Shown one piece after another: positions 315 to 18,885 of a DNA stretch of 64,000 nucleotides. A model generated the notes under the pieces. It was not told where the DNA came from. It did not search any database and worked only from the letters and a program-made list of their open reading frames with translations. The translations under genes and the position numbers were made by a program. How positions within the stretch are numbered: position 1 is the stretch's first letter; every line of letters starts with the position of its first letter. The stretch is taken from positions 62,001 through 126,000 of the forward strand of contig CAMCUN010000001.1 in assembly GCA_945878995.1 (NCBI GenBank), given 5' to 3'. Source of the stretch: Polaromonas sp. YR568 (lineage in GTDB: Bacteria > Pseudomonadota > Gammaproteobacteria > Burkholderiales > Burkholderiaceae_C).

Positions 315-344
315 AACTCGGCCACATACGGACATACCCGATGC

Positions 345-362
345 CGTAATTTGTTCGGACAA
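345..362 (-). promoter_or_regulatory. GntR-type operator upstream of TRAP operon 1
   Basis: Read on the minus strand, this 18-mer is TTGTCCGAACAAATTACG, which matches the site in front of the gntR gene (12239-12256) at 16 of 18 positions. The core TTGTNCGNACAA is a near-perfect palindrome, as expected for a dimeric winged-helix repressor. A second, partial match, TACGGACATA at 327-336, is identical to 10 bases of the sites at 6512 and 13100. The TRAP small permease starts 16 bases downstream, so binding would control the whole operon. Confidence 0.7.
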
Positions 363-377
363 CACAAAATTCAGTCC

Positions 378-1013
378 ATGAACACTTCAGTCAATTCTTC
401 GGTTGCTCCGGTACCGCCCAACAATGATGACGGTTTGCTGGGTGCTGCGCTGCTGGGCGCGGCCAGGGTCTCGCGCTGGCTGGCCCGCATCGGTGGGGCC
501 ATGATGCTGGTCTGTGCCATCTTGGTCACGCTGGACGTGGTGGTTCGCGCTGCCTTCAAGGTCACCTATTTCGAGAGTTTCGAGCTGTCCACCTACGCCT
601 TTGCCATCGCCACGGCGCTGGGCCTGTCGTATGCGCTGGTCAGCCGCGCCCACATCCGCATCGAGGTGCTGTACATGTTGCTGCCTGCGCGGCGGCGCGG
701 CTGGGTGGACCTGTTCGCCTATGTGGTGCTGGCGGTCTGTGCCCTGACGCTGCTGTACTGGAGTGCGCAGCTGGTGCTGGGCAACTACCAAAGTGGTGCG
801 CGGTCCAACTCTTCGTTGTCCTTGCCGCTGGTCATTCCGCAAGGCATCTGGCTGGTCGGCCTGGCCTGGTTTGCCTTGCTCTCAGTGCTGTACGCCTTGC
901 TCGGCCTGCGCCTGTGCCTGCGCGGCCGGCCTGAGCAAGCCCATAGGCAGTTGGGTGTGGCCTCGCTGGAAGAGGAAATCGAAGCCAACGTGACCAGGAA
1001 ATCCTCACCATGA
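378..1013 (+). CDS. TRAP transporter small permease (DctQ family)
   Basis: This is the small four-helix membrane subunit of a TRAP system, which uses an ion gradient to import carboxylates or similar solutes bound by a periplasmic protein. The 211-residue product has a polar N-terminal 30 residues and then four hydrophobic segments, roughly residues 35-60, 70-90, 110-135 and 155-180, as usual for DctQ. I chose the ATG at 378 because an in-frame TTG at 351 lies inside the operator. The gene overlaps the large permease by four bases (ATGA). It is the first gene of a dctQ-dctM-dctP order. Confidence 0.9.
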   Translation: MNTSVNSSVAPVPPNNDDGLLGAALLGAARVSRWLARIGGAMMLVCAILVTLDVVVRAAFKVTYFESFELSTYAFAIATALGLSYALVSRAHIRIEVLYMLLPARRRGWVDLFAYVVLAVCALTLLYWSAQLVLGNYQSGARSNSSLSLPLVIPQGIWLVGLAWFALLSVLYALLGLRLCLRGRPEQAHRQLGVASLEEEIEANVTRKSSP

Positions 1014-2302
1014 TGCTCACCACTGTTTTGTTGTTGCTGTTGCTTGCAGGCGGCAGCGTGTTCGTGGCTGCCGTGCTGGGGGTGCTGGGCACCACGCTGG
1101 CGCAGCTTTTTTCGAGCTTTCCCCTGCAGCGGGCCTTGGGCGAGATGGCCTGGAGTTCGAGTGCAGACTTCATCTTGGTGGCTGTGCCCATGTTCATCCT
1201 CATGGGCGAGCTGCTGCTGCGCTCCGGGGTCACAGACAACATGTACACCGCCTTAGACCGCTGGGTGGGACACATCCCCGGCGGGTTGATGCACACCAAC
1301 GTGGCGGCCTCGGCGGTGTTTGCCGCCACCTCGGGCTCGAGCATCGCCACAGCGGCCACCATAGGCACCATCTCCATCCCGAACATGGATCGTTATGGCT
1401 ACAAGGCACCGCTGTTCCTGGGCACGATTGCCGCTGGGGGTACGCTGGGCATCCTGATCCCGCCCAGCATCAACATGGTGCTTTATGGCGCCATGTCCGA
1501 AACCTCGGTGTCTGAGCTCTACCTGGCGGCCACCATTCCTGGCCTGATGTTGGCCCTGATTTTTTCCATCTACGTCTACATCGCCTGCAAGATCGATCCT
1601 AGCTTGGGGCCCAAGCGTGAGCCGGCGCCCTGGGGTGAGCGCTTTCGCGCCCTGGTGCATCTCATGCCGCCTTTGATGCTGTTCATGCTGGTGGTCGGCT
1701 CCATCTACGCGGGCCTGGCCACCGCCACAGAGGCTTCGGCCCTGGGCGTGGTCGGCGCGCTGGGCTTGGTGGTGGTGCGCCGGCGCCTGAGCATAGACAT
1801 GCTGATGCTTTCCTTTGAGAGCACGGTGCGCACCACGGCCATGGTCATGATCATCGTGATCGCCGCCTTTTTCTTGAACTTCGTGCTCTCGACCCTGGGC
1901 CTGACCGATGCGGCCGTCAAATGGGTGGGTAAGTTGCAGTGGTCACCCAATACCATTTTGCTGTGCATTGTGCTGCTCTACATCGTTCTTGGTTGCTTTG
2001 TGGAGTCGCTCACGCTGATGGTGGCGACCACGCCCATCGTGGTGCCCATCATCCAGAACCTGGGCTTCAGCCCCATTTGGTTCGGCGTGGTGTTTGTGAT
2101 CCTGATCGAGACCGCCTTGATCACGCCGCCCATAGGCATGAATCTTTTCGTCGTGCAGTCGGTGCGCAAAGGCGGGGCTTTCCGGGACGTGGTGATCGGC
2201 TCGCTTCCCTTTGTGGGCCTGATGTTCTTGATGATCTTGCTGCTGATCGCGTTTCCGTCCATCGCGCTGTGGCTGCCTTCTGTTTTTTCCGCCCGTGCAT
2301 GA
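1010..2302 (+). CDS. TRAP transporter large permease (DctM family)
   Basis: The 430-residue product is the 12-helix transport subunit of the TRAP system. Family-typical stretches are visible: the SSIATAAT segment near residue 105, GTLGILIPPSI near 147, and ITPPIGMNLFVVQ near 370. It begins inside the last codons of the small permease (ATGATG), so the two are probably translationally coupled. The binding protein follows 34 bases later. The substrate cannot be told from this subunit. The 2210-2302 end carries the usual final hydrophobic helix. Confidence 0.95.
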   Translation: MMLTTVLLLLLLAGGSVFVAAVLGVLGTTLAQLFSSFPLQRALGEMAWSSSADFILVAVPMFILMGELLLRSGVTDNMYTALDRWVGHIPGGLMHTNVAASAVFAATSGSSIATAATIGTISIPNMDRYGYKAPLFLGTIAAGGTLGILIPPSINMVLYGAMSETSVSELYLAATIPGLMLALIFSIYVYIACKIDPSLGPKREPAPWGERFRALVHLMPPLMLFMLVVGSIYAGLATATEASALGVVGALGLVVVRRRLSIDMLMLSFESTVRTTAMVMIIVIAAFFLNFVLSTLGLTDAAVKWVGKLQWSPNTILLCIVLLYIVLGCFVESLTLMVATTPIVVPIIQNLGFSPIWFGVVFVILIETALITPPIGMNLFVVQSVRKGGAFRDVVIGSLPFVGLMFLMILLLIAFPSIALWLPSVFSARA

Positions 2303-2336
2303 ACGCATGCACCTTATCAACCTTTGGAGATTTCCC

Positions 2337-3392
2337 ATGAATAACAGCAAGAAATTCCTGGCCACTGCGGTGGCCCTTGGCCTGGGCCTGCTGGCCACGG
2401 CGGCCAGTGCCCAAAGCAAGCTCAGCTTGCAGGTGGTGGGCAACTTGGGCATCACCACCCAGTACAAAGAACTCGAAGAGCCCTTTTGGTCCAAGCTCAT
2501 TCCCGCCGCCACGGGCGGGCGCATCACGGCGGCCATCAAGCCTTGGAACGAGATGGGCCTGAAAGGCCCTGAAGTGTTCCGCATGCTCGGTCAGGGCGTG
2601 TTCGACGTGGGCACCTCGCAGCTGGGTTTTGTGGCCGGCGACAACGCCATCAACGATGCCACCGACTTGGCCGGCGTCTCACCCGACATCGAGACCTTCC
2701 GCAAGGTGACGCAGGCCTTCCGGCCACAGATCGAGCGCTATTACGAGCAGCAACTCAAGGTCAAGACCTTGGGCATGTTCTCCTTTCAGGCGCAGGTGAT
2801 GTTCTGCCGCAACGAGATCAAGGGCCTGTCTGACATCAAGGGCCGCAAGATCCGCACCTCGGGCGCCTCGCAGGCCGATTTCGTCAGCTACTTCGGCGCC
2901 TCGGGGGTGAACATGGCGTTTGGCGAGGTGCAGCAGTCCCTGCAAAGCGGCGTCATCGACTGCGCCATCACCGGCACCCTGGGGGGCTACAAGGCCAAGT
3001 GGTATGACGGCGCCAAATACCTGTACGCGCTGCCCATCAACTTCGGTGCCGGCATGTCGGCCATGAACATGACGACTTGGCGCAAGCTGGACGCTGCCAC
3101 GCAAAAAACCATAGAAGCCGAGTTTGTCAAACAGGAGCAGGCGGTGTTCGAACAGAACGTGCGCGAGAACGAATTGGGAATTTCCTGCAACACCGGAGGC
3201 GCCTGCTCTGAAGGGCCGGCCGGCACCATGGTGCTGGTGCGCCCCTCGGCTGCCGACCTGGATCTGCGCAAGAAAGCCCTCGTTGAGCAGGTGCTGCCGC
3301 GTTGGGCTGGCCGCTGCGGCGCGGCCTGTGTGACGGCCTGGAATGACTCGGTGGGCAAGATCGTTGGGCTGACCGCCACCGCCGCCAAGTGA
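2337..3392 (+). CDS. TRAP transporter substrate-binding protein (DctP family)
   Basis: The 351-residue product is a periplasmic binding protein that delivers the solute to the permease. The ATG at 2337 follows a TTGGAGA ribosome site and opens a clear signal peptide (MNNSKKFLATAVALGLGLL, cleavage near ASA-QSK). An ATG at 2295 would add a tail that spoils the signal. The central part has the conserved IKGLSDIKGRKIRTSG segment and the GEVQQSLQSGVIDCA segment of DctP proteins. A C-terminal pair of cysteine-containing stretches (SCNTGGACSEG and GRCGAACV) could form disulfides. It overlaps the next gene by four bases. Confidence 0.93.
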   Translation: MNNSKKFLATAVALGLGLLATAASAQSKLSLQVVGNLGITTQYKELEEPFWSKLIPAATGGRITAAIKPWNEMGLKGPEVFRMLGQGVFDVGTSQLGFVAGDNAINDATDLAGVSPDIETFRKVTQAFRPQIERYYEQQLKVKTLGMFSFQAQVMFCRNEIKGLSDIKGRKIRTSGASQADFVSYFGASGVNMAFGEVQQSLQSGVIDCAITGTLGGYKAKWYDGAKYLYALPINFGAGMSAMNMTTWRKLDAATQKTIEAEFVKQEQAVFEQNVRENELGISCNTGGACSEGPAGTMVLVRPSAADLDLRKKALVEQVLPRWAGRCGAACVTAWNDSVGKIVGLTATAAK

Positions 3393-4309
3393 GTACCGCC
3401 AGCGGTGCGGGCATCTCACCAGGGATGGCCGCGCTGCTACTGGGCGTCATGCTGGCATGGGGCTTTAACGTGCCCATTGTCAAAGCCATGACCGAGGTCA
3501 TGGACGTGGTCTGGGTCGCGGTGGTGCGCATGGGTTCTGCCGCATTCACCCTCACGCTGGTGCTGTTGCTGCGCGACCGGCGTTTGCCCCGGTTTGAACG
3601 CCGCCAGTGGTTTTGGCTGGGCGCCAGTGCGGTGCTGCTGATTTACCTGAACCAGTGGCTGTTTGTGATGGGCATGCGCCTGTCGGCCGGCACCACGGCC
3701 TCTTTGGTGATGGCGGTCAACCCTTTGCTGGCCGTGCTGGCCGGAGCCCTGGTCTTCAGAGAAAAGGTAAGCTTCACGCGCGCTGCTGGGGTGGTCTTGG
3801 GCCTGTCCGGCGTGTCCTTGGCCGTGTTCATGGCGCCTCAGGCCGAGGTGGCATGGCCCGGACAAGGCGAGCTCTTGATTTTTCTGGGACAGGTGTTGTT
3901 CATAGGCGGGGGCTTGATGATCCAGCGCCTTACCCGCGACCTCGATGTGTTGGTGATAGGCTGGGCTGTCTATGTGCTGGGCAGCCTGATGCTGCTGGTC
4001 AACGCCCTGCTTCTGGGCGGCTGGCCACGCACGCAGGCGGCGTTTTCGCTGGACTGGGTCTGGGCCTGCGCGCTGTATGCGGGAATCCTGGGCACGGCGC
4101 TGCCCAATGTGGGCTGGTACCACGTGATCGGCAAAATCGGCCAGAGCCAGGCCAGTCCTCACCTGTACTGGCTGGCGGTGTTTGGCATGCTGTCCTCTGC
4201 GCTGACCTTGGGCGAGCCTTTGAGCCTGTGGCACGCCATCGGCCTGGCCTTGCTGGTGGCCGGTATCCGCTTGGGATCTGCGCCCGTGCGCCTGGGTCCG
4301 GGCGCCTGA
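3389..4309 (+). CDS. EamA/DMT-family transporter
   Basis: The 306-residue product has ten hydrophobic segments in two tandem EamA halves, typical of drug/metabolite transporters that export small metabolites or amino acids. The start is a GTG overlapping the stop of the binding-protein gene (GTGA); an ATG at 3425 is an alternative. Coupling to the TRAP operon suggests it exports a by-product or moves the same class of solute. It runs tail to tail with the MmgE/PrpD gene, with only 15 bases between them. Confidence 0.88.
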   Translation: MSTASGAGISPGMAALLLGVMLAWGFNVPIVKAMTEVMDVVWVAVVRMGSAAFTLTLVLLLRDRRLPRFERRQWFWLGASAVLLIYLNQWLFVMGMRLSAGTTASLVMAVNPLLAVLAGALVFREKVSFTRAAGVVLGLSGVSLAVFMAPQAEVAWPGQGELLIFLGQVLFIGGGLMIQRLTRDLDVLVIGWAVYVLGSLMLLVNALLLGGWPRTQAAFSLDWVWACALYAGILGTALPNVGWYHVIGKIGQSQASPHLYWLAVFGMLSSALTLGEPLSLWHAIGLALLVAGIRLGSAPVRLGPGA

Positions 4310-4324
4310 GCCTGAGCTTCAGTC

Positions 4325-5716
4325 TCAGCCGGCCAACAGCTGCACCAGTGGCCCCAGCTCGGTCTGCGTGGGCAATTGCTTGAGCCAGGCGATCGCCTCC
4401 TCCATGGCTGGACCAGACTGGCGCGTCAGGCGCCAGCACAGGCGAAATTTGTCTTCGCGCTCCAGTGGGCTCAAGGGCATCAGCGGATGGCCCCAGGCGT
4501 GCGGAATCTGTCTTTCAAGGCTGCGGCCGTCGGCCAGCTCCAGCCTCAGGGTCTGCGGGTAAAAGGCGTTGGGGTTGGGATGCGGCTTTTCAGCCGTGTG
4601 CACGCGGCGGCCCAGGGTTTCGACGCGCGCATCGTGCAGGCACTCCGTTGTGAAACTGGTCGGGTCAACCCGGCCGAACACCAGCTCGGCCGCCGCCACA
4701 TAGGCAATGCTCAGGCGGGCGTAATTGGGGGCCGGTTGGTGGACCATGGGCCGGCCCACCAGGCGAAAGCCCAAGGGCGGCAGGTCCACATGAATGGCGC
4801 TGACCTGCTCTAGCGCCTGCTCGGGGCTCAGGCCCAGTTCCTGGCGCAGCTGGTGCAGGGCATGGATCACGCCGTGTGTGACGCGGCCGCTGGGAAAGGG
4901 CTTGTGCGACAGCTGCGTGACCTTCCAGTGTTTCGTCATTTCCGCCAGCGCCTGCTGCAATTCGCCGCCGTCCTCGAAGTTGCGAAAAAAGCCAAAGCGC
5001 CCGCCCAGGATTTCGACAGGGGCAGTCAAGCCCACCTTGGCCATGTCGTGGGCTTGGACCGCATTGCGCGCGGCAAAGCCCATTTGCATGGCAAGCATCA
5101 TGGAGCCTTCCTCGTGCGCCTGCATGGGGCCGCAGACCTGCGAATAAGCAATGCCGAAGGCATGGCGCAGCTGCTCTCGCGGTAGCCGGTCCAGGCAGGC
5201 CAAGGCTGCCAGACCCGAGAACACCCCGGTGGTGGCCGGTCGGAAGAAAAACATCGCCTGGCGCGTGGCCGCCGACAGCGTGCACGAGACTTCCAGGCCC
5301 ACCACAAAAGCCCGCAGCAGATCGCGGCCCGAGGGCGAGCGGCCGGCCGCTACGAGCTCGTCGACCTTGGTCATCAGTGCGGCCAGCAGTGGCGCGGTCG
5401 GCAAGATCACACCGGGCTCGTAGACGCAGTCGTATTCCAGGGCATGGCACTGGTAGCCGTTGACAAGCGCAGCCACCGGCGCTGGCACTCGGCGGCTCTG
5501 GTTCCAGAGCACGGCGTCGCCGCCAGAGCCCCAGCGGCTGGCAGCGCTGAGCAGGTCGTCGAGCTTGGGCGCCATGCGACCAGCACAGGCCACGCCCACG
5601 GTGTCTAGGAAGAACACCGTGGCGGCTTCGACCGCCTCGGCCGGCAGGTCCTCAAAGCGTGTTTGCTCGATCAGGTCCAGGATGCGCTCTATGGGGTCGT
5701 GAAAGGTGGTGCTCAT
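4325..5716 (-). CDS. MmgE/PrpD family protein
   Basis: The 463-residue product belongs to the family of 2-methylcitrate dehydratase and cis-aconitate decarboxylase, whose members dehydrate or decarboxylate tricarboxylate-like substrates. Family-typical stretches include DTVGVACAGR near residue 35, ALVNGYQCHALEYDC near 88, and the SHKPFPSGRVTHGVIHAL segment near 270. The first codons overlap the stop of the crotonase gene (ATGA), so the two form one leftward operon. The exact substrate is unknown. A second MmgE/PrpD domain occurs at 24479, fused to a ligase. Confidence 0.9.
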   Translation of the reverse strand: MSTTFHDPIERILDLIEQTRFEDLPAEAVEAATVFFLDTVGVACAGRMAPKLDDLLSAASRWGSGGDAVLWNQSRRVPAPVAALVNGYQCHALEYDCVYEPGVILPTAPLLAALMTKVDELVAAGRSPSGRDLLRAFVVGLEVSCTLSAATRQAMFFFRPATTGVFSGLAALACLDRLPREQLRHAFGIAYSQVCGPMQAHEEGSMMLAMQMGFAARNAVQAHDMAKVGLTAPVEILGGRFGFFRNFEDGGELQQALAEMTKHWKVTQLSHKPFPSGRVTHGVIHALHQLRQELGLSPEQALEQVSAIHVDLPPLGFRLVGRPMVHQPAPNYARLSIAYVAAAELVFGRVDPTSFTTECLHDARVETLGRRVHTAEKPHPNPNAFYPQTLRLELADGRSLERQIPHAWGHPLMPLSPLEREDKFRLCWRLTRQSGPAMEEAIAWLKQLPTQTELGPLVQLLAG

Positions 5717-6498
5717 GGCTGGTGTGAAGGAAAAAGGGCAGGGCGTTTTTGCAGGAAGGCGTCGCGGCCTTCAATGAAGTCGGGGCCGGCAAACATCTGG
5801 ACAAAGGTTTGCTGCGCTTGCGCCAGGGCTTGCGTGTCACCTGCGGCGACCGCGTGCAGGCCGCGCTTGAGCGCGCGGGTGGCGTCCAGCGAACTGGCGC
5901 TGATGGCTTGCAGCAGGTCCTCGGCGGCCGCATCCAGGGCGCCTAGTTCGTGCACCTGGTTGACCAGGCCGGTCTGCAGCGCGCGCTGCGCGGACCACAG
6001 CTGCGTGCCATAAAGCAGCTCGCTGGCGGCGGCCAGGCCGCAGGCCTGCACCAGGCGGGCGATGTCGGACACCGGGTAGGACAGGCCCAGTCGCGCGGCC
6101 GTGATGCCAAAGCGCGAGCGGGTGCTGGCCAGGCGCATGTCGCAGGCCAGGGCCAGGGCCAGGCCGCCGCCCACGCAGGGCCCGTCTATCAGTGCCAGCA
6201 CCGGCAGCGGGCAAGCCGCCAGGGCCGCTCCGGCGTCCTCGATCTCCCGGCTGGCGCGCGCCGCTTCTTCGGCGGTGGCATAGGTCGCCTCGAACTCGCT
6301 GATGTCGGCACCCGCGGCAAACATGCCGGGTGTGGCGCTTTGCAGCACCAGCACGCGGCAGCGGGCATCAGCGCTGGCTTGCTGCACCAGGGCGGGCAGG
6401 TCGCGCCACATCTGGCGGGTAAAGGCATTGCGCCTTTGCGGGTGGTCGATCAGCAGGCGCGTCAGAGCGCCGCTGGCATGGAGCCGGAGTGGATTCAT
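5713..6498 (-). CDS. enoyl-CoA hydratase/isomerase family protein (crotonase fold)
   Basis: The 261-residue product has the crotonase oxyanion-hole segments AAGADISEFEA (near 62) and GPCVGGGLALALACDMR (near 102). At the place where classical hydratases carry a catalytic Glu (usually in a PE motif), it reads FGITAARLGLSYPVSD, so a standard hydratase reaction is doubtful. Isomerase, lyase or thioesterase chemistry is possible. The ATG at 6498 is only 14 bases from the operator and its TATTAT box, which would give a very short leader. It is coupled to the MmgE/PrpD gene. Confidence 0.85.
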   Translation of the reverse strand: MNPLRLHASGALTRLLIDHPQRRNAFTRQMWRDLPALVQQASADARCRVLVLQSATPGMFAAGADISEFEATYATAEEAARASREIEDAGAALAACPLPVLALIDGPCVGGGLALALACDMRLASTRSRFGITAARLGLSYPVSDIARLVQACGLAAASELLYGTQLWSAQRALQTGLVNQVHELGALDAAAEDLLQAISASSLDATRALKRGLHAVAAGDTQALAQAQQTFVQMFAGPDFIEGRDAFLQKRPALFPSHQP

Positions 6499-6511
6499 AG
6501 ATATTGCGGAT

Positions 6512-6529
6512 GATAATATGTCCGTACAA
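6512..6529 (-). promoter_or_regulatory. GntR-type operator between divergent operons
   Basis: On the minus strand this is TTGTACGGACATATTATC, identical over all 18 bases to the site at 13100-13117. TATTAT (6513-6518) can serve as a -10 box for the crotonase operon. On the plus strand the same bases give GATAAT, a possible -10 for the deacetylase operon. One bound repressor could therefore silence both directions. Confidence 0.75.
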
Positions 6530-6553
6530 CTGAGCCAAGTGACGGGGGACGCC

Positions 6554-7438
6554 ATGAACTACCAGATTGAAAAAAAAAGTTATGAATGGCCGGGCGGTGC
6601 GCCCCTGGCCCTGTCGGTGGTGCTCAACGTGGAGGAGGGCGCCGAGGCCAACATCCTCGATGGCGACAAGTACCCCGAGCCGGTCGACGAAATGGGCCTG
6701 GCGCTCAAGCGCAGCATCCGCAACCACGGCAACGAGTCCAATTACCGCTATGGCCTGACCCGGGGCGGGCCTCGTGTGATGCGCCTGTTCGAGCAATACG
6801 GCATACGCGCCACCATCACCGCCTGCGCGCTGGCGCTCGAGCGCGCCCCCGAACTGGCACGCGAGATCATGCGCCAGGGCCACGAGGTCACCTCGCACGG
6901 CTACCGCTGGGCGCACCAGTTCCACATGGACGAGGCGCAGGAGCGCGACTACATCCGCAAGGCGGTGGCCTCGCTGGAGAAAACCACAGGCCGCAAGCCG
7001 CAGGGCTGGCTCTCGCGCTACCTGCTGACCGACCACACCCGCCGCCTGCTCTGCGAAGAGGGGTTCCTCTATCACATGGACGACTATGGCGACGACGAGC
7101 CGCGCTGGGAAGCCATTGACGGCAAGCCCATCGTGATCCTGCCTTACCAGGTGGACAACAACGACATGAAGATGTGGTCCGCGCCGGCCTACAGCCCGGA
7201 GCAGTGGCTCAAGTACGCGATTGACAACCTCGAGTGGATGATTGCCGAGGGCGCGCACGAGGTGAACATGATGTCGCTGGGCCTGCACATGCGGATCATT
7301 GGCCGGCCCGGCCGCGTCTGGGCGCTGGAAAAGTTCTTGGCCCATGCGGCCGCGCGCGCCCAGCAAGGCCAGGTCTGGCTGGCCACACGCGAGGAGATCG
7401 CCCGCCACTTTGCCAGCCAGGTGCCCTGGCGTGGCTGA
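6554..7438 (+). CDS. polysaccharide deacetylase family protein, PuuE/allantoinase-like
   Basis: The 294-residue product resembles the PuuE branch of the NodB-fold deacetylases, which includes cofactor-free allantoinase. Matching stretches are VVLNVEEGAEA (residue 18), ITACALALERAPE (near 86), EVTSHGYRWAHQFHMDEAQE (near 111), MDDYGDDEPRW (near 175) and PYQVDNNDMKMW (near 197). Such enzymes open cyclic amides, so it may hydrolyse a ring amide or imide of the unknown substrate. There is no signal peptide, which argues against a cell-wall role. I chose the ATG after GACGGGGGAC because upstream codons run into the operator. It overlaps the next gene by eight bases. Confidence 0.82.
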   Translation: MNYQIEKKSYEWPGGAPLALSVVLNVEEGAEANILDGDKYPEPVDEMGLALKRSIRNHGNESNYRYGLTRGGPRVMRLFEQYGIRATITACALALERAPELAREIMRQGHEVTSHGYRWAHQFHMDEAQERDYIRKAVASLEKTTGRKPQGWLSRYLLTDHTRRLLCEEGFLYHMDDYGDDEPRWEAIDGKPIVILPYQVDNNDMKMWSAPAYSPEQWLKYAIDNLEWMIAEGAHEVNMMSLGLHMRIIGRPGRVWALEKFLAHAAARAQQGQVWLATREEIARHFASQVPWRG

Positions 7439-8687: not shown

Positions 8688-8723
8688 GGCAGCGCCCCTG
8701 CTTTTTTATGAAGGAAACATTCG

Positions 8724-10845: not shown

Positions 10846-12224
10846 GTCTTGATCAGTCGCAGCGGTTTTTGGCGGGCCTCGACCCCGGTCAGCTCGGCCA
10901 GGGCGCGGGGGGCTTCCAGCACGACCTGCACCTCCACGCCAAGTTGCTGGCGAAGGTGGGCATGGTAGCGCTGTAGCAGTTCGTCATCGCGCGGGGCGTG
11001 ACATTCGATGCGCACCGTCATTTCCTCGCGGCCGCTGACCTGGGCCAGCACGCACAGGTACTCGCCATGAAAGCCGGGCAGGTTCGCCAAGATGTTGGAC
11101 AGCGACTGCGGAAACACATTGATGCCGCGCAGCTTGACCATGTTGTCGCTGCGGCCTAAAAAGCCCTCCATGCGGGCAAACGGCAAGCCCAGCGCCGAGC
11201 TGCCAGGAAGCATGCGCGTCACGTCATGGGTGTTAAAGCGGATGATGGGGAAAATATCTTCGCTGAACAGACAGGTGACAACCAGGTCCCCTGGCTCGCC
11301 CTGGGCCACGGGGCGGCCGGTGTCTATGTCGCAGACCTCAGCCCAGTGCGCGTCCTCCATCACATGCATGCCCTCGTGGTCCGGACCTTCGGCCGCAATC
11401 AAGCCGGTGTCGCCCACGCCATACCAGTCAAAAAGCTCGGGCCCGCCCCAAGCCTTGGCCAGTCCGGCCCGGGCGTCTTTGGACAGGTGGCCAGAAATCA
11501 TGCGGATGGGAATGTCCAGGCCGGGCTCCATCCCGTGCTCGCGCGCGACCTCGGCCAAGCGCTGGATGTAATCGGCAAAGCCGACGATGACACTGGCGCG
11601 AAACTCGCGCATGTACTCCACTTGCTTGAGAGAAGGCGTCTCCACCCCAGTGCCGGCCGAAAAGAACAAGGCCCCGGTGTGGTGAACCACAGACTCACGA
11701 ACATAGTGGCCGCCGTTGACCGGGCCGTGGCCATAGACCGAATGCACCACATCGCTGGGGCGCAGCCCTTGCATCAGGTAGGCCCGCGCCAGCATCAGCT
11801 TGTGGACCTCGCGGGTGCGCGGGCTGAACAGCAGGGGCTGGGGCCGGCCGGTGGTGCCGCTGGTGGCATGGACAATCATGGGCAAAATGCGGCCGTTCAC
11901 CGGGATGTCGCGGCCATGGTGGTCGCCCAGGGGGGGCTGGCGCTCTATCGAGGCCATGATTTCATGCTTGCCAAAGCTGGGCAGGTTGGCAATGTCCTCA
12001 ATGCGGCGGATGTCTCCAGGGGCGATGCCGGCTTGCCCCCACAGCCGCTGGTAAAACGGAATTTGCCAGGCCCGCAGCATGACGCGATTGAAAAGCGTTT
12101 GCTGGTGGTGGCGCAGCGCATCGACAGACATGGCGCAAAATTTTTCCAGGAATGCCTCACCCACCGGAAACTCCTGTCGGAGTTGGCGCACGTCTATGGC
12201 TTCAAAATAGCTTGCGTGTGACAT
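10842..12224 (-). CDS. PaaK-like acyl-CoA ligase (AMP-forming)
   Basis: The 460-residue product resembles phenylacetate-CoA ligases of the adenylate-forming superfamily. It has the phosphate-binding loop ATSGTTGRPQPLLFS (near 120), a DWYGVGDTG adenine-site motif (near 274), GRSDNMVKLRGINVFP (near 362) and a late Lys region (RQKPLRLIKT). It should activate a carboxylic acid with ATP and CoA. The ATG is 15 bases from the operator at 12239. It is the first gene of a two-gene leftward operon with the amidase and diverges from gntR. Confidence 0.88.
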   Translation of the reverse strand: MSHASYFEAIDVRQLRQEFPVGEAFLEKFCAMSVDALRHHQQTLFNRVMLRAWQIPFYQRLWGQAGIAPGDIRRIEDIANLPSFGKHEIMASIERQPPLGDHHGRDIPVNGRILPMIVHATSGTTGRPQPLLFSPRTREVHKLMLARAYLMQGLRPSDVVHSVYGHGPVNGGHYVRESVVHHTGALFFSAGTGVETPSLKQVEYMREFRASVIVGFADYIQRLAEVAREHGMEPGLDIPIRMISGHLSKDARAGLAKAWGGPELFDWYGVGDTGLIAAEGPDHEGMHVMEDAHWAEVCDIDTGRPVAQGEPGDLVVTCLFSEDIFPIIRFNTHDVTRMLPGSSALGLPFARMEGFLGRSDNMVKLRGINVFPQSLSNILANLPGFHGEYLCVLAQVSGREEMTVRIECHAPRDDELLQRYHAHLRQQLGVEVQVVLEAPRALAELTGVEARQKPLRLIKT

Positions 12225-12238
12225 GGGATCCTGTTAAT

Positions 12239-12256
12239 TTGTCCGAACATATTATG
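12239..12256 (+). promoter_or_regulatory. GntR-type operator between ligase and gntR
   Basis: The 18-mer TTGTCCGAACATATTATG shares the TTGTNCGNACATATTA consensus with the other four sites. TATTAT (12250-12255) can act as the -10 of gntR. It sits between the divergent starts of the acyl-CoA ligase (12224) and gntR (12297), so it fits autoregulation plus control of the ligase-amidase operon. Confidence 0.72.
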
Positions 12257-12296
12257 AGGGCATACTTGCCGACCATCAAGACGCGAGGGAAATGGC

Positions 12297-13052
12297 ATGG
12301 GCAAAGAGGGGCAGGCAGAGCTGGACAAGGGAACAGGCCCTTTTTACAAGCGGCTGGCAACCATCCTAATGGACGACATTCGCAGCGGCAGGTGGGCTGT
12401 GGGTGCGGCCCTGCCGACGGAAAAAGAACTGTGCGACACCTTCCAGGTCAGCCGGCACACCACCCGGGAGGCCTTGCGCCAGCTTGAAGAAAAAGGCCTG
12501 ATCGCCCGCCGCCAGGGGTCGGGCTCCACGGTCTTGGCCACCAGCCCGTTGGTGCGCTACGAGCAGAACATTCAGACCATTGAGGACATGCTGCACCACG
12601 GTGCTTCCACCAGGCTGCATGTGATCTTGGCGCAGGAGGTGGGCGCCGATGCGAACGCCTATTCCAGCCAGGTCTGGCAACTGGCCAAAACACCATGCGT
12701 GTGGGTGCGCTCTATCCGCTATCCGCGCAATGACGCACGGCCACTGGCCCTGGTCGACGTCTATGTGGCGGTGCGCAGCAAGCGTCAGCACAGGCAATTG
12801 CTCAATGTAGAGACGGCGGCCAAGGAGATCGTTGCCACGGTCGATGTGAACAAGATTGACCGCATTGACCAGCATTTCAGTGCCATCAACGTTGGGCCAG
12901 CTGAAGCCAAGTTGCTGCATGTGCAGGCGGACGAGGCGGTATTTCAGATCTTGCGCTACTACTTTGATGCCGCTGGACGGCTGATGGTGGTGGCTCACTC
13001 GCTCTACAACGGCGGCTTGTTCACCTATGGATCGACCTTGCGTCGTTCCTGA
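12297..13052 (+). CDS. GntR/HutC-family transcriptional regulator
   Basis: The 251-residue product has an N-terminal winged helix (residues about 14-82, with LPTEKELCDTFQVSRHTTRE and the wing GLIARRQGSGSTV) and a C-terminal UTRA ligand-binding domain (about 95-245) as in HutC. UTRA domains bind small metabolites, so the inducer is probably a pathway intermediate. A GAGGGAA ribosome site precedes the ATG. The central position and the five matching palindromes nearby make it the probable regulator of the whole 345-18723 block. This is an inference; the sequence does not show binding. Confidence 0.9.
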   Translation: MGKEGQAELDKGTGPFYKRLATILMDDIRSGRWAVGAALPTEKELCDTFQVSRHTTREALRQLEEKGLIARRQGSGSTVLATSPLVRYEQNIQTIEDMLHHGASTRLHVILAQEVGADANAYSSQVWQLAKTPCVWVRSIRYPRNDARPLALVDVYVAVRSKRQHRQLLNVETAAKEIVATVDVNKIDRIDQHFSAINVGPAEAKLLHVQADEAVFQILRYYFDAAGRLMVVAHSLYNGGLFTYGSTLRRS

Positions 13053-13086
13053 TGTTCATCCGTATTTCCACCTAGCTGCAACCCCC

Positions 13087-13117
13087 TTGCATGGACAGCT
13101 TGTACGGACATATTATC
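13087..13117 (+). promoter_or_regulatory. promoter with embedded GntR-type operator for TRAP operon 2
   Basis: TTGCAT at 13087-13092 and TATTAT at 13111-13116, 18 bases apart, form a plausible sigma-70 promoter. The operator TTGTACGGACATATTATC fills 13100-13117, covering spacer and -10, the classic arrangement for repression by occlusion. The same 18-mer occurs inverted at 6512-6529. Confidence 0.72.
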
Positions 13118-13190
13118 TAGCCCATCTTAGTCCGGGCAGGTCTGGTGAGGGTCTGTCTTTTTGTGCATTGCATTTGTTCAGGAGTCTGCT

Positions 13191-14198
13191 ATGAAAGTTT
13201 CATTTCGGGGTCGTCGCATCGCCTTGTCATTGCTGGTTGCCGGCGCATCGGTGGGCTTGATAGGCGCCGCACAGGCACAGACCAAATTAGAAATTTCCGT
13301 GCCCTGGGGCCCCAATGAGTTTCACTCGCTCAATGCGGCGGCCTTTGCCAAGCGCATCACCGAGGAAACCAAGGGTCAGGTGCAAGTGTTCTCCCGCCCG
13401 GGTGGCGAGCTCGGCGTCAAGGCCAATGAGTCGGTGCGGGCGGTGGCTGAAGGCGTGGTGCCCATGGCCGACCTGGCGCTGTTTCAGAACGCCAGCCGCG
13501 GCCCTGCGATGGCGGTCGAGACCTTGCCATTTTTGGTCAACGATTACGAGCAGTTGCAGGTGCTACATAAGAGCTTTCGTCCCTTGTGGGAGAGCCTGCT
13601 GAGCAAGAACAACCAAAAAATGCTCTACGTGGTGCCTTGGCCCAAACAGTTCTTTTTCACCAAAAAACCAGTCCAGACCGTCGATGATCTCAAGGGCTTG
13701 AAGATGCGCTCTTTGGACAAGCTGACCACCGATTGGATCAACCGCCTGGGCATGGTGCCTGTGCAGTTGACCAACCTGGAGATATTGCAGGCCCTGGGCT
13801 CTGGCATGCTTGAAGGTGTGCCGACCTCGGCGGGCACGGCGGTGGCGCAAAAGTACTGGGACTTCATGAAGTTCGGTTACGAGACCAACCACATCTGGGC
13901 TTCCAATGTGATGACCATCAACATGGACACTTGGAAAAAACTCACGCCTGAACAGCAGCAGACCATTGAGCGCGTGGCCCGCGAAATGGAGCCAGGTTTT
14001 TGGGAAAACAGCAAGCGAGATCACCAAGTCAAGGTGGTTGAGTTGCAGAAAAACGGCATGAACATTCAACCCATGCCGCGCGCCGTGGTCGACGAGATGC
14101 GCCGCCGCACCGCAGCCTTGTGGGAGCAGTACACCAAGCCCATGGGCGACGAGGCCGTCAAAGCCTTGGGCCAGTACCGCAGCGCGATTGGTAAGTGA
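13191..14198 (+). CDS. TRAP transporter substrate-binding protein (DctP family), second system
   Basis: The 335-residue product begins after a CAGGAG ribosome site with a signal peptide (MKVSFRGRRIALSLLVAGAS, cleavage near AQA-QTK). The mature part has family-typical stretches: KPVQTVDDLKGLKMRSLDK near 160, NLEILQALGSGMLEGVPTS near 190, and a W-Q/E-rich C-terminal helix. It is distinct from the protein at 2337, so the locus imports two related solutes or keeps two affinities. It is first in its operon, while the first system has it last. An operator-bearing promoter lies directly upstream. Confidence 0.92.
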   Translation: MKVSFRGRRIALSLLVAGASVGLIGAAQAQTKLEISVPWGPNEFHSLNAAAFAKRITEETKGQVQVFSRPGGELGVKANESVRAVAEGVVPMADLALFQNASRGPAMAVETLPFLVNDYEQLQVLHKSFRPLWESLLSKNNQKMLYVVPWPKQFFFTKKPVQTVDDLKGLKMRSLDKLTTDWINRLGMVPVQLTNLEILQALGSGMLEGVPTSAGTAVAQKYWDFMKFGYETNHIWASNVMTINMDTWKKLTPEQQQTIERVAREMEPGFWENSKRDHQVKVVELQKNGMNIQPMPRAVVDEMRRRTAALWEQYTKPMGDEAVKALGQYRSAIGK

Positions 14199-14228
14199 CC
14201 GCTTCTAAGGGGCAAGCAGGGTCTGGCT

Positions 14229-14750
14229 GTGCGTAAACTGCTTGACCGTATCTATGCGGCCAGCTTGTTTGTGGCCGCCTTGTTCTTGGTGGCCATCTTT
14301 GCCTTGATGATAGGCGAGGCCGTGATGCGCAAGATGGGCAGCTACATCACGGGCGCTTCCGAGTTGGTGGGGTGGTGTTGCGCTGCGGCAGGGTTTTTGG
14401 CCCTGCCAGCGACCTTCAAGCGCGGTGACATGGTCAGAGTCGGGCTGCTTGTTGACGTCATGCCGCCGCGTTTACGCAAGCCTGTGCTGCTGGCCTGCCT
14501 GCTTTTGGGCCTGGTGTTCACCGCTTACATGCTCAAGGCCATTGCTGCGTACATGTGGGGCAGTTTTGTGGTCGATGAATTGACGCAGGGCATGATCGAA
14601 ATCCAGGTCTGGGTTCCCATGATCAGCTTTCTTGTGGGTGTGGCCCTGATGCTGGTGGCCATTTTGGATGAATGGGTGGTGGCCTGGCGCACCCCGGCAG
14701 CCGATCTGCGCGCTGAAAAACCGCCCGCGATCAACGAGCCTGGCCTGTGA
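14229..14750 (+). CDS. TRAP transporter small permease (DctQ family), second system
   Basis: The 173-residue product has four hydrophobic segments (about 10-32, 45-65, 85-107 and 125-150), as expected for DctQ. It starts at a GTG 30 bases after the binding-protein gene. The C-terminal tail from about 152 is polar and cytoplasmic. It would form the membrane complex with the product of the next gene. Confidence 0.88.
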   Translation: MRKLLDRIYAASLFVAALFLVAIFALMIGEAVMRKMGSYITGASELVGWCCAAAGFLALPATFKRGDMVRVGLLVDVMPPRLRKPVLLACLLLGLVFTAYMLKAIAAYMWGSFVVDELTQGMIEIQVWVPMISFLVGVALMLVAILDEWVVAWRTPAADLRAEKPPAINEPGL

Positions 14751-14763
14751 CCGGAGCCCTGTT

Positions 14764-16062
14764 GTGAAGACCTCTGCCCTTTTGATCGTGCTGCTGATCT
14801 TGCTTCTTGCAGGCGGGGTCTGGATTTCATTCGCTTTGGGGGTGGTGGCTTGGGCTGGTGTGGCATTTTTCTCCAACACGCGCCCCGACATCAACTTGGT
14901 GACCTCCTACTGGAACACCTATTCCTCGCTGTCTCTGGCTTCCTTGCCCATGTTCATCTGGATGGGTGAAATCTTGTTCCGTACACGCCTGGCCGAGCAG
15001 ATGTTTGCGGGCCTCGCGCCCTGGTTGGACCGCCTGCCCGGCCGCCTGCTGCATGTCAATGTGCTGAGCTGCGGCATCTTTGGCGCGGTCTCTGGATCGT
15101 CTTCGGCTACCTGTGCCACCATCTCCAAGATCGCCTTGCCTGAGCTGGCCAAGCGCGGCTATGACCAGCGCCTGAGCATAGGCAGTTTGTGCGGCGCGGC
15201 CACGCTGGGCATTTTGATTCCCCCCTCCATCGCGATGATCATTTATGCGGTGGCGGCTGATGTATCGATTGTCCGAATGTTCCTTGCGGGCATCATTCCT
15301 GGCATCTTGATCCTTTTTCTTTTTTCCGGTTACATCGCCTTGTGGGCCTGGCGCCACCCTGAACTCATGCCGCCGCGCAGCTTCGAGACCACCTTCTGGG
15401 AGCGCGTCAAGGCCAGCTCACGGCTGCTTCCGGTGCTGCTGCTGATCGCGGCGGTTTTCTTGTCGATGATGCTCGGTGTGGCCACCGCCAATGAGGCCTC
15501 TGCCTTTGGCGTGCTCGGCGCCCTGGTGATCGCGGCTTTGGGCGGCAACCTCACCTGGGTCAATTTGCGCGACAGCCTGACCGGGTCCTTGCGCATGAGC
15601 GCCATGATCATGTTTATTCTGGGCGCAGCCAGTTTCTTGACGGTGGCCATGGGTTTCACTGGCATTCCCCGGGCCTTGTCCGAGTGGGTGGTGTCGCTGC
15701 AACTGTCCCCCTACGCCTTGATGGCGGTGCTCACGGTGGTCTACCTGGTGCTGGGCATCGCCCTGGATGGCGTGTCCATGATTGTGCTGACCACCGCAGT
15801 GGTCCTGCCCATGGTGCAGGCTGCTGGGTTCGATCCAATCTGGTTTGGCATTTACATCATCATCATGATCGAGTTGGCAGAGATCAGCCCGCCTGTGGGT
15901 TTCAATCTTTTTGTTCTGCAGAACATGACGGGCAAAAGCATGATGACCATTGCCCATGCCGCCATGCCCTTTTTCTTCATCTTGTGCTTGGCAACCGTCT
16001 TGCTGATCGTGTTTCCTTCGATCGCCACCTGGCTGCCGGGCGCAATGATGGGCACAAGATGA
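14764..16062 (+). CDS. TRAP transporter large permease (DctM family), second system
   Basis: The 432-residue product carries about twelve hydrophobic segments with the family stretches SGSSSATCATISKIALPE (near 117), GAATLGILIPPSIAMIIY (near 144) and EISPPVGFNLFVLQNMTG (near 379). The GTG at 14764, just after the small permease stop, is the best start: codons further up overlap the previous gene in another frame. A weak hairpin with a T run follows the stop, suggesting that the operon ends here. Confidence 0.92.
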   Translation: MKTSALLIVLLILLLAGGVWISFALGVVAWAGVAFFSNTRPDINLVTSYWNTYSSLSLASLPMFIWMGEILFRTRLAEQMFAGLAPWLDRLPGRLLHVNVLSCGIFGAVSGSSSATCATISKIALPELAKRGYDQRLSIGSLCGAATLGILIPPSIAMIIYAVAADVSIVRMFLAGIIPGILILFLFSGYIALWAWRHPELMPPRSFETTFWERVKASSRLLPVLLLIAAVFLSMMLGVATANEASAFGVLGALVIAALGGNLTWVNLRDSLTGSLRMSAMIMFILGAASFLTVAMGFTGIPRALSEWVVSLQLSPYALMAVLTVVYLVLGIALDGVSMIVLTTAVVLPMVQAAGFDPIWFGIYIIIMIELAEISPPVGFNLFVLQNMTGKSMMTIAHAAMPFFFILCLATVLLIVFPSIATWLPGAMMGTR

Positions 16063-16071
16063 AGGCTCTTG

Positions 16072-16095
16072 AACTGTTTTAAACAGACAGTTTTT
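16072..16095 (+). terminator. possible weak terminator after TRAP operon 2
   Basis: AACTGT (16072-16077) pairs with ACAGTT (16087-16092) around a nine-base loop and runs into five Ts. The six-pair, AT-rich stem is weak, so read-through is likely. Confidence 0.35.
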
Positions 16096-16158
16096 GGCCC
16101 TACATCGCCAAGGATCACCGGCCCAGCAGATTGACATCTGGCCAGCCGATTCCTACAC

Positions 16159-16176
16159 TTGTCCGTACATATTTAC
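16159..16176 (+). promoter_or_regulatory. GntR-type operator upstream of acyl-CoA dehydrogenase
   Basis: The 18-mer TTGTCCGTACATATTTAC matches the consensus of the four other sites, with TATTTA (16170-16175) in the -10 position. It lies 118 bases before the dehydrogenase ATG, inside the 231-base gap after TRAP operon 2. This gap holds no gene. Confidence 0.7.
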
Positions 16177-16293
16177 AGTCTGGACGCCCCCTTGATTGCA
16201 TGCGCAGATCAGTCTGCAAGCATGCAGGGCCAGCAAGTACCGCAGGGCGTTCCTGCGGAGATCAAAAAATTGAAACAAGGTGAGGAAAAGCGC

Positions 16294-17448
16294 ATGAGCA
16301 CGAACAGCAAGCCGCAGGACGATGCCGAGATCCTGGACGCCATTGAGCAGTGGGCCGAAAAGGAATTGCGCCCGGTGGCGCGCAAGTTCGATCACGCCGA
16401 CGAATACCCGCACGAGATCGTCGAGCAAATGAAGTCGCTGGGGCTGTTCGGCGCCACGATTGGCGAGGCCTACGGCGGCTTAGGCTTGTCGGCCAGCACC
16501 TACGCCAAGATCGTGGTCAAGGTGTCCTCCATCTGGATGGCGCCCTGCGGCATCTTCAATTCGCACCTGATCATGGCTGCCGCCATTGAACGGGCGGGCA
16601 CCGAGGAGCAAAAACGCCACTGGCTGCCACGCATGGCTTCGGGAGAGTTTCGCGGCGGCATTGGCCTGACCGAGGCCAACGCCGGATCGGACCTGCAGGC
16701 CATTTGCACCGTGGCCAAGCGGGAAGGCGATGACTACGTGGTCAATGGCAGCAAGATGTGGATTACCAACAGCCTGCATGGGCAGGGCATTTTGCTGCTG
16801 GTCAAGACAGACCCCAAGGCCGAACCCCGCTACAAGGGCATGAGCCTGCTGATTGCGCCCAAGGGGGATGGTTTTAAGGTCTCCAAGCTCAAAAAGCTCG
16901 GCTACCGCTCCATTGACAGCTGCGAGGTCCATTTGCAGGACTACCGGGTGCCGGCCTCCCATTTGCTGGGCGGCGTGGAAGGCAAGGGCTTTATACAAAC
17001 AGCATCGGGGCTGGAACTCGGGCGCATCAACGTAGCCGCCCGCGGCGCAGGCATAGGCGAGGGCGCGCTGCTGTTGGCGCTGCGCTATGCGCAAGAACGC
17101 AGCGCCTTTGGCAAGTCCATCAGCAACCACCAGGCCATCCAGCTCAAGCTGGCCGACATGGTGACCCAGGTGGAGGGGGCCAAGCACCTGATTGAGGCGG
17201 CGGCCCGCCGCTACGATGCCGGCGAGCGCTGCGACCTGGAAGCGGCCATGGCCAAGCTGGCGGGCTCTGAGGCCGGGGTGTTTTGCTCGCAAGAGGCCAT
17301 GCGCATCTTTGGCGGCTACAGCTACTCGGTGGAGTACGACATTGAACGCTTTTACCGCGACAGCTTGCTGATGTGCATTGGCGAAGGCAGCAACGAGATC
17401 TTGCGCCAGGTCATCGCCAAGCAACTGATAGAACGCCACCCCGCCTGA
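16294..17448 (+). CDS. acyl-CoA dehydrogenase
   Basis: The 384-residue flavoenzyme oxidises an acyl-CoA to the 2,3-enoyl-CoA. It shows GGIGLTEANAGSDLQAI (near 120), KMWITNS (near 152), RSAFGKSISNHQAIQLKLADM (near 268) and the C-terminal IGEGSNEILRQVIAKQLI, in which the Glu of GEG is the expected catalytic base. I chose the ATG at 16294 after GTGAGGAAAAG; in-frame starts further up would add an unstructured leader. It is followed by the CoA transferase gene and probably acts on the product of that enzyme or of the PaaK-like ligase. Confidence 0.92.
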   Translation: MSTNSKPQDDAEILDAIEQWAEKELRPVARKFDHADEYPHEIVEQMKSLGLFGATIGEAYGGLGLSASTYAKIVVKVSSIWMAPCGIFNSHLIMAAAIERAGTEEQKRHWLPRMASGEFRGGIGLTEANAGSDLQAICTVAKREGDDYVVNGSKMWITNSLHGQGILLLVKTDPKAEPRYKGMSLLIAPKGDGFKVSKLKKLGYRSIDSCEVHLQDYRVPASHLLGGVEGKGFIQTASGLELGRINVAARGAGIGEGALLLALRYAQERSAFGKSISNHQAIQLKLADMVTQVEGAKHLIEAAARRYDAGERCDLEAAMAKLAGSEAGVFCSQEAMRIFGGYSYSVEYDIERFYRDSLLMCIGEGSNEILRQVIAKQLIERHPA

Positions 17449-17514
17449 GCGCCGCCGTGGGCAGCGCTGCATCCTTGTGGCGCTCAGCCCGGCATTGAAT
17501 GACAAGGACTTTGC

Positions 17515-18723
17515 ATGAAGCTCGAAGGCTTGCGGGTGATCGATCTGTCGCAGTTTTTGCCCGGCCCGCACTTCACCATGATGATGGCCGACCATGGCGC
17601 GGAGGTGATCCGTGTCGAGTCCCGCGCCGGTGAGCCCACGCGCGTGATTGGCGCGCGCCAGGCCAATGCCAGCGTCTGGTTTCGCAACACCCACCGTGGC
17701 AAAAAAAGCGTGGTGCTCGATCTCAAACGGGCCGAGGGCGTGGCGGCTTTTATCAAACTGGCGGCCAGCGCCGACGTGGTGGTCGAGGCCTTCAGGCCTG
17801 GCGTGGTGGACCGGCTGGGCATTGGCTACCAGGCTGTGCGCGCTGTGCATCCCGGCATCGTCTATGTCTCCATTGCGGCCTTTGGCCAGAGCGGACCGCT
17901 CTCTCAGCGGCCGGCCCACGACCTGAGCATCCAAGCCGAGAGCGGCGTGCTCAGCCTCAACTGCGGCAGCGACGGCAAGCCCGCTCTGCCGGGCGTGCCT
18001 GCCGCCGACATGGTGTCCTCACTGATGGCCATGAACGGGGTCATGATGGCCTTGCTGCGGCGCCAACAGACCGGTCTGGGCGACTACATCGACATCTCCA
18101 TGCAGGACAGCCTCCTCAGCTGGCTGGTCAATGTGGTGGGCCCTGTTTTTGGCGAGGAGCGCGATCTGGTGCTGGCCAACGAGCGGGGCTTTGGCGGCAA
18201 TGCTTTTTACAAGCTCTACGAGTGCGCCGACGGCCGCTTTATCTCTTTGGGCGGCAGCGAAGTCAAGTTCGCGGCCAACTTGCTCAAGGCGCTGGGCCGC
18301 CCTGAGCTGATCGACCTGTGCCGCCAGCCACCCGGCCCTGCGCAAGCGCCTGTGCGTGCCTTTTTGCAAGAGACCTTTGCGTCACAACCCTTGCCGCACT
18401 GGGAGGCTTTTTTGCAGCCGCTCGATGTGTGCTGGGCACCCGTGCGCTCGATCAAAGAGGCGCTGGAGACGGCTCAGGTCCATGAACGCGGCATGCGCCA
18501 AGAGGTGACTCAGAGCGGCTTTGGTGGCGGCAAGGTGACCCAACTGGGCATTCCCATTCGCTATCAAGACGAGCCAGGCCGCATCAACCCTGAGATTCCC
18601 GAGCTCGGTGAGCACACGCACGAGGTGCTGGGCAGCTTGGGGATGGCCAGCGAAGACATTGCTTTGGCCTCGGGCTTGGCACCTGGGCAAACTCTGACGG
18701 CCCAGGCCCAGGCCCACGGCTAA
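17515..18723 (+). CDS. CaiB/BaiF family CoA transferase (class III)
   Basis: The 402-residue product has the class III layout: the N-terminal MKLEGLRVIDLSQFLPGPH, then DHGAEVIRVES, GKKSVVLDLKRAEG, and HDLSIQAESGVLSLN, where the Asp is at the place of the catalytic residue that forms an acyl-anhydride. It moves CoA between two carboxylic acids. It lies 66 bases after the acyl-CoA dehydrogenase gene. The locus therefore has three ways to handle CoA: a ligase, a class III transferase and a member of the acetyl-CoA hydrolase/transferase family. Confidence 0.92.
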   Translation: MKLEGLRVIDLSQFLPGPHFTMMMADHGAEVIRVESRAGEPTRVIGARQANASVWFRNTHRGKKSVVLDLKRAEGVAAFIKLAASADVVVEAFRPGVVDRLGIGYQAVRAVHPGIVYVSIAAFGQSGPLSQRPAHDLSIQAESGVLSLNCGSDGKPALPGVPAADMVSSLMAMNGVMMALLRRQQTGLGDYIDISMQDSLLSWLVNVVGPVFGEERDLVLANERGFGGNAFYKLYECADGRFISLGGSEVKFAANLLKALGRPELIDLCRQPPGPAQAPVRAFLQETFASQPLPHWEAFLQPLDVCWAPVRSIKEALETAQVHERGMRQEVTQSGFGGGKVTQLGIPIRYQDEPGRINPEIPELGEHTHEVLGSLGMASEDIALASGLAPGQTLTAQAQAHG

Positions 18724-18877: not shown

Positions 18878-18885
18878 GTGTCTGG

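Follow-up and report, generated by a model that had tools for sequence, protein, structure and literature searches.

The regulators of the HutC subfamily (HutC, YvoA/NagR, DasR and PhnF) join a GntR winged helix to a UTRA effector domain. According to PMC4494728, the operators of GntR regulators are palindromes with GT and AC, which lie 4 nucleotides apart in most HutC sites; single sites in divergons sit midway, position 39 of the helix is linked to the central operator bases, and the base contacts of AraR are given as Arg-63, His-64, Gln-83 and Gly-84 (Table 1 of that paper). Here, we analyse a regulator gene with the same two domains, and five short palindromic sites around it, in a 64,000-nucleotide stretch of Polaromonas sp. 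YR568 (assembly GCA_945878995.1, positions 62001–126000 of contig CAMCUN010000001.1, denoted C1), which we call the window. The five sites are very probably bound by this regulator and would mark one co-regulated degradation pathway, possibly one in which cyclic nitrogen rings are opened. We assign a probability of about 0.87 to the reading that they are the operators of the GntR/HutC-type regulator encoded at 12297–13052 and front the seven units of a transport and degradation module. Computation gives directly the sites, their genome-wide rarity, their conserved positions and their association with one regulator lineage; we infer that the regulator binds the sites, that it acts as a repressor and not an activator, and which kinds of effector and chemistry are involved.

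Probable operator sites, their rarity and their conservation

An earlier note on this DNA had placed five near-identical sites at 345–362, 6512–6529, 12239–12256, 13100–13117 and 16159–16176. All five are present, each 5′ of a gene or between divergent genes as described, and those at 6512–6529 and 13100–13117 are exact reverse complements across 18 bases. The TATTAT −10 box that they were said often to cover occurs at sites 6512 (minus strand), 12239 and 13100; site 16159 has TATTTA and site 345 has none. Their ATTA-type tail is also present, but is better described as one arm of a longer palindrome of which the other arm is often degenerate. The core, TGTNCGNACA, is a 10-bp dyad with A/T shoulders, and its centre is CG in all five sites. 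The full palindromes, which carry no strand assignment, are as follows.

347..366, operator 1: core 351–362, TTGTTCGGACAA; 16 bp 5′ of the likely DctQ1 ATG (378)
6514..6533, operator 2: core 6518–6529; between the divergent hydratase and PuuE-like genes
12235..12254, operator 3: core 12239–12250; between the divergent ligase and gntR genes
13096..13115, operator 4: core 13100–13111; 5′ of the second TRAP set
16155..16174, operator 5: core 16159–16170; 5′ of the acyl-CoA dehydrogenase and CaiB-type CoA-transferase genes

A profile of 40 sites reads as the palindrome AA(T/G)TTGTCCGGACAA(C/A)TT, with A at 90% and T at 78% at the key shoulder positions; these sites were hand-picked for exact cores, TGTNCGNACA being the selection criterion, so that only the shoulders are informative.

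Rarity was assessed in the whole assembly (4,145,272 bases in 154 contigs, 96.5% complete). The strict pattern WTGTNCGNACAW occurs at nine places, compared with two for the reversed-pattern control. Seven of the nine fall within C1:56340–78170 (21.8 kb), five being the window sites and two lying in the left flank, less than 6 kb from the window; the binomial probability of this clustering, calculated after the region was known, is 4e-15. The earlier note would have given up the regulon had the 18-mer been frequent elsewhere in the genome, and it is not. The two remaining strict sites are on contigs C35 and C80. That on C80 (position 6353 of its locus, L030) stands beside a ClpX-family gene and an open reading frame (ORF) without a Pfam match and was taken as chance or unrelated; around that on C35 (L079) a scan for homologues found none. 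Operator 3 is the best match in the genome, and the 20-mer TAATWTGTNCGNACAWATTA with up to three mismatches has four genomic matches, all in the cluster, with none in the control. First-order Markov resampling (60 draws for each segment) gave a mean of 0.05 strict sites for window positions 1–18723, where five are observed, and of 0.18 for positions 18724–64000, where there are none. Looser scans behave differently: with one mismatch TTGTNCGNACA has 21 matches in the window (shuffle mean 12.7), and the A/T-shouldered pattern with three mismatches has 92 places genome-wide compared with 111 in the control. Only near-exact matches are therefore informative. The core TGTNCGNACA itself occurs six times in the window; the sixth copy, at 3145, is inside the first DctP gene and lacks the A/T shoulders.

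The earlier note had proposed comparing the regions upstream of orthologous loci. The loci compared were L025 from a Comamonadaceae metagenome-assembled genome (MAG; regulator 96% identical, same sequence as genome G863), L026 from Caenimonas soli (regulator 74%), L027 from a Rubrivivax MAG (regulator 69%) and L114, L118, L119 and L121, all from the window's own genus. A strict site is found in 22 of the 22 comparable regions of these seven relatives, although L119, L114 and L121 are near-duplicates and the independent evidence is therefore smaller than this count. The count covers five operon starts of the window; it excludes the window's own five sites and L119 13310–13500, which no TRAP gene follows, and becomes 28 of 28 with them. 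By start, the site is present in two relatives for TRAP system 1, five for the hydratase/PuuE divergon, six for the ligase/gntR divergon, four for TRAP system 2 and five for the acyl-CoA dehydrogenase operon. Operator 1 has a counterpart at the same position in L119 and L121, and at this start AATTTGTTCGGACA is invariant in three genomes. The hydratase/PuuE divergon keeps ATAATATGTCCGTACAACT unchanged in six genomes while its flanks differ, so that about 20 nearly contiguous positions do not vary, and the gntR promoter carries the site in all seven loci where the region could be compared.

The central regulator gene, at 12297–13052, encodes both domains, with scores of 72.3 bits for GntR (PF00392; cut-off 27) and 33.1 bits for UTRA (PF07702; cut-off 23.8), the best UTRA stretch spanning only profile positions 84–137 of 141. 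Its match to the HutC histidine-utilization repressor model TIGR02018 (91.7 bits) is below the cut-off of 220. The recognition helix reads SRHTTR, and the sites follow its histidine: within 1.5 kb of the 18 His-bearing regulators collected (window included; L037, L038 and L040 represent one genus), strict sites are found for 14 and core sites for 16. Among control loci without the helix His, strict sites are near none of eight GntR loci and none of 30 UTRA loci (21 genomes), and core sites near one of eight and one of 30. These 38 control loci comprise 36 distinct regulators, as those on C11 and C90 of the window genome are in both sets, and L010 and L012 overlap. The association of His with site has a Fisher probability of 5e-10 with kinship ignored. 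Seven other GntR matches in the genome (E up to 1e-5) have neither the SRHTTR helix nor a site.

Gene set and candidate pathway

Pfam agrees with the two TRAP systems, the eight enzymes and the regulator that the earlier note had assigned to seven units; the regulator is of the GntR/UTRA type, and there is also one EamA exporter.

378..1013, + strand: TRAP system 1 small permease DctQ (PF04290; scanned from 351)
1010..2302, + strand: TRAP system 1 large permease DctM (PF06808)
2337..3392, + strand: TRAP system 1 solute-binding protein DctP (PF03480; ORF 2295–3392, start 2337 assumed)
3389..4309, + strand: EamA-type exporter, last gene of unit 1 (PF00892)
4325..5716, − strand: MmgE/PrpD family protein (PF03972, PF19305)
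5713..6498, − strand: enoyl-CoA hydratase/isomerase family protein (PF00378)
6554..7438, + strand: PuuE-like (polysaccharide deacetylase fold) hydrolase, candidate cyclic imidase (PF01522)
7440..8687, + strand: acetyl-CoA hydrolase/CoA-transferase family protein (PF13336; ORF 7299–8687, start 7440 assumed)
8724..9461, + strand: family-3 solute-binding-domain (SBP3) protein of the PuuE unit (PF00497)
9556..10845, − strand: amidase (PF01425)
10842..12224, − strand: PaaK-like acyl/aryl-CoA ligase (PF14535, PF00501; TIGR02155 below cut-off; PDB 4r1l)
12297..13052, + strand: GntR/HutC-type regulator (GntR and UTRA), helix SRHTTR (PF00392, PF07702)
13191..14198, + strand: TRAP system 2 solute-binding protein DctP (PF03480)
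14229..14750, + strand: TRAP system 2 small permease DctQ (PF04290)
14764..16062, + strand: TRAP system 2 large permease DctM (PF06808; start assumed)
16291..17448, + strand: acyl-CoA dehydrogenase (PF00441, PF02770, PF02771; start assumed)
17515..18723, + strand: CoA-transferase family III, CaiB/BaiF (PF02515)

Unit 1, behind the site with core 351, consists of the TRAP genes DctQ-DctM-DctP and the EamA exporter. The site at 6518 divides the enoyl-CoA hydratase and MmgE/PrpD genes (minus strand) from those of the PuuE-like hydrolase, the CoA-transferase-family protein and the SBP3-domain protein (plus strand), and the site at 12239 divides the PaaK-like ligase and amidase genes (minus) from the regulator (plus). 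The MmgE/PrpD protein is 64–72% identical to its counterparts in L026, L027, L118 and L119; for the SBP3-domain protein, no homologue was found in the kin loci searched (L025–L027, L118, L119, L114 and L121).

The genes that stay together (those for the PuuE-like hydrolase, the amidase, the PaaK-like ligase, the CoA-transferases and the MmgE/PrpD protein, joined in kin by a lyase and a hydratase) suggest a route in which a cyclic imide or ureide is opened, deamidated, activated with CoA and cleaved. After uptake by the TRAP systems, the PuuE-like hydrolase would open the ring and the amidase would deamidate the product, which the PaaK-like ligase or the CoA-transferases would convert to a CoA ester for dehydrogenation, hydration and cleavage. 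In kin, operators also stand before a homoaconitase-family hydratase gene, which diverges from a PuuE-isochorismatase-acyl-CoA dehydrogenase group, before an SDR-PuuE-lyase-MaoC-acyl-CoA dehydrogenase-CaiB-CaiB operon and before a TonB receptor gene. The receptor (L076) was considered as a clue to the substrate and set aside, as its family and PDB matches fit siderophore, haem and B12 receptors alike. In one relative (G366, L047 2391–4412) a gene for a PrpR-type σ54 activator stands beside operators at 4402 and 4535 and a TonB receptor.

We tentatively favour, at somewhat less than even odds, a cyclic-imide pathway in which a PuuE-like imidase is followed by an amidase acting on the half-amide and by CoA activation and cleavage of the dicarboxylate. 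Aspergillus offers a precedent in the cyclic imidase HxnM followed by the amidase HxnN (PMC9304392), and the amidase and PuuE-like genes are conserved partners here. The kin regulons add the homoaconitase-family hydratase (PRK00402, above cut-off), a RipC/CitE-like lyase and a mesaconyl-CoA-hydratase-like MaoC protein. Left of the window on the same contig there are a 65% identical MaoC protein and a 34% identical lyase homologue; no aconitase-family gene was found in the window or the left flank, and most family models are matched only below their equivalog cut-offs. PuuE allantoinase and the cyclic imidases, with their polysaccharide-deacetylase fold, are the best fold relatives of the 6554–7438 protein. 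The protein is a candidate imidase, but is closer to PuuE than to the HpPgdA/imidase branch: it scores 229 and 225 bits with the PuuE allantoinase structures 3cl6 and 1z7a, its closest solved relatives, and 59 bits with the cyclic-imidase relative HpPgdA (3qbu).

The same scores speak for a different chemistry behind real operators, ureide or hydantoin-type catabolism with an allantoinase-like rather than imide-acting PuuE-like protein. The best NCBIfam model is also that of allantoinase PuuE (TIGR03212), but the score of 244.6 bits misses the equivalog cut-off of 424.6, and the neighbouring genes encode CoA-ester enzymes, not purine enzymes. Neither an allantoicase nor a uricase family name appears among the cluster proteins scanned, and the lyase, hydratase and aconitase-family partners of the kin better fit a dicarboxylate product. 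We consider ureide catabolism somewhat less probable than the imide pathway. Itaconate/mesaconate degradation is a related comparison, as the kin operon behind an operator likewise has CaiB, the mesaconyl-CoA-hydratase-like MaoC and the RipC-like lyase; however, these kin enzymes are below equivalog cut-offs and the window operon lacks the lyase and hydratase.

The boldest proposal, which we regard as improbable, is that the regulon serves dialkyl-substituted cyclic imides from haem, bilin or chlorophyll breakdown (hematinic acid, methylvinylmaleimide or methylethylmaleimide). Its chemical fit is our own reasoning from the structures of these compounds. Hydrolysed hematinic acid, a methyl-cis-homoaconitate, would suit MmgE/PrpD (methylcitrate-dehydratase type) and homoaconitase-family enzymes, and a CitE/RipC-type lyase would finish the route. 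The TonB-dependent receptor and up to three PuuE-like paralogues in kin are as expected for larger pigment-derived substrates. If true, bacteria would have a genetically defined route for the final steps of tetrapyrrole carbon.

Extent and distribution of the proposed regulon

The regulon is not confined to 345–18723, as the earlier note had it, but is larger, with further sites just left of the window. The strict site at C1:56340 and a tandem partner 16 bp further on (one core mismatch) separate the gene for a branched-chain-type permease from the divergent gene for a binding protein, and the strict site at C1:58566 is 5′ of an acyl-CoA dehydrogenase gene. These tandem operators are at L029 13341–13367, 16 bp apart at the branched-chain-type ABC transporter; two relatives have pairs spaced alike (G466 C1:1428669/1428685 and G613 C79:36427/36443). 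At L029 16949–17704, also left of the window, a gene of the arylmalonate decarboxylase/Asp-Glu racemase family stands beside the acyl-CoA dehydrogenase gene. Immediately right of the cluster is a tRNA-Gly (ccc) gene (18804–18877, minus strand), a possible edge of a mobile or patchy region. An island as wide as the 64-kb window was considered, but the uneven G+C content marks out no clear boundary. Further right, a 994-residue ORF (24479–27463, plus strand) fuses an MmgE/PrpD domain with an AMP-binding ligase domain, thereby joining the two families that adjoin each other in relatives of the regulon. A BRO-N domain protein is encoded at 36502–37344 (plus strand); such proteins are often of phage origin.

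Within the genus, the ligase is matched at E ≤ 1e-80 in seven of 87 genomes, counting its own and one match of 37% identity. The regulator is matched at E 1e-40 in three of 399 family genomes and at E 1e-30 in 13 of 399 order genomes, its own included in both counts. Other families of the order also have the regulator together with a PaaK-like ligase (55–64%), an amidase and one or two MmgE proteins. This set is found in G366, G037, G449, G532, G671, G613 and G466, with core sites at all seven loci, although one of the two in G449 is inside a gene. The remaining five relatives at order level (G409, G718, G633, G499 and G745), together with G714, form a looser group without the ligase in the stretch examined. 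Whole-genome strict sites, given with their reversed control, number 12/1 in G366, 8/3 in G037, 14/8 in G671, 23/6 in G613, 17/4 in G466, 21/4 in G583, 7/0 in G718 and 3/2 in G499, with little enrichment in G671 and G499. In three genomes they gather near the regulon: G366 (8 of 12, C2:131933–163688), G037 (7 of 8, C10) and G466 (9 of 17, C1:1418134–1463522). On plasmid pTM2 of Tistrella mobilis a site lies between a CoA-transferase/regulator pair and a divergent MmgE-ligase-amidase operon. The plasmid relatives from Azospirillum (L071) and Cupriavidus (L072) have GntR homologues of about 33% identity; L071 has no core site and L072 has one, 5′ of an acyl-CoA dehydrogenase operon.

Probable mode of control and comparison with known systems

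A dimer of the regulator would read the palindrome at the starts of the seven units, its own included, and would probably repress by covering the −10 region or the spacer until a pathway intermediate, bound by the UTRA domain, released it. Autoregulation is predicted from the site in the gntR promoter. Of the four promoter-like matches in 1–18900, three overlap operators (16131–16159, 12279–12251 and 6538–6510), which fits steric repression.

Several points weigh against this interpretation. The number of promoter-like matches (four) is not above that in shuffles (mean 2.6), some GntR regulators activate, and the binding of the regulator and its effects on expression at the sites are predictions from sequence. 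The relatives compared are not independent, with the L025 regulator 96% identical and L119, L114 and L121 near-duplicates. Test and control regulators were chosen by similarity and two control regulators were counted twice; the His-bearing regulators of L035 and L042 lack a core site within 1.5 kb, and the only core sites of L034 and L039 appear to be inside genes. The published HutC consensus, NyGTMTAKACNy, has a TA centre where the window sites have CG (PMC4494728).

As binding by the central regulator is a prediction and two of the strict sites are on other contigs (C35 and C80), a different regulator might occupy the sites, with gntR as a passenger. This is very improbable given the site in the gntR promoter of all seven comparable loci, the tracking of sites with His-helix regulators across genera and the lack of helix and site for the seven other GntR matches of the genome. 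Chance, or a dispersed repeat without regulatory role, would suit the shortness of the sites and the unenriched loose scans, but is refuted for practical purposes by the near-exact sites, which are few in the genome as a whole, are placed in intergenic regions or at the starts of genes and keep their positions while their flanks diverge.

The reading of the locus as one regulon is very well supported and directly testable; in agreement with the earlier note, which knew of no regulon with this gene set, we found no description of the regulon or its operator in searches of open-access papers. By family annotation alone the genes would be an unconnected assortment of transporters and CoA enzymes, which the conserved operators draw together; the regulon also offers a gene set and an operator that can be tested and, by way of the regulator's effector, access to the substrate. 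There may also be a simple rule within one HutC-type lineage, in which the helix His goes with a CG-centred operator, that would let the regulon be found in many genomes.

Among described systems, the HutC subfamily provides the best full-length solved relatives of the regulator (DasR and YvoA) and, in PMC4494728, the same palindrome with GT and AC 4 nucleotides apart and a divergon with the site near its middle. The equivalog cut-offs for HutC, PhnF and others are not reached, however, and the gene set also differs. AraR of Bacillus subtilis resembles the window regulator in the residues that would read DNA: its contact residues fall on Arg53, His54, Gln73 and Gly74, a mapping by position through the coordinates of an equal-length match to 4egy rather than a residue-by-residue alignment, and its operator ORX1 ends in CGTACAAAT, with a CG centre like the window sites (PMC4218819). 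AraR differs in having a LacI-type sugar-binding C-terminal domain, where the window regulator has UTRA, and in controlling arabinose genes. The regulator thus resembles a HutC-type protein whose reading head is AraR-like.

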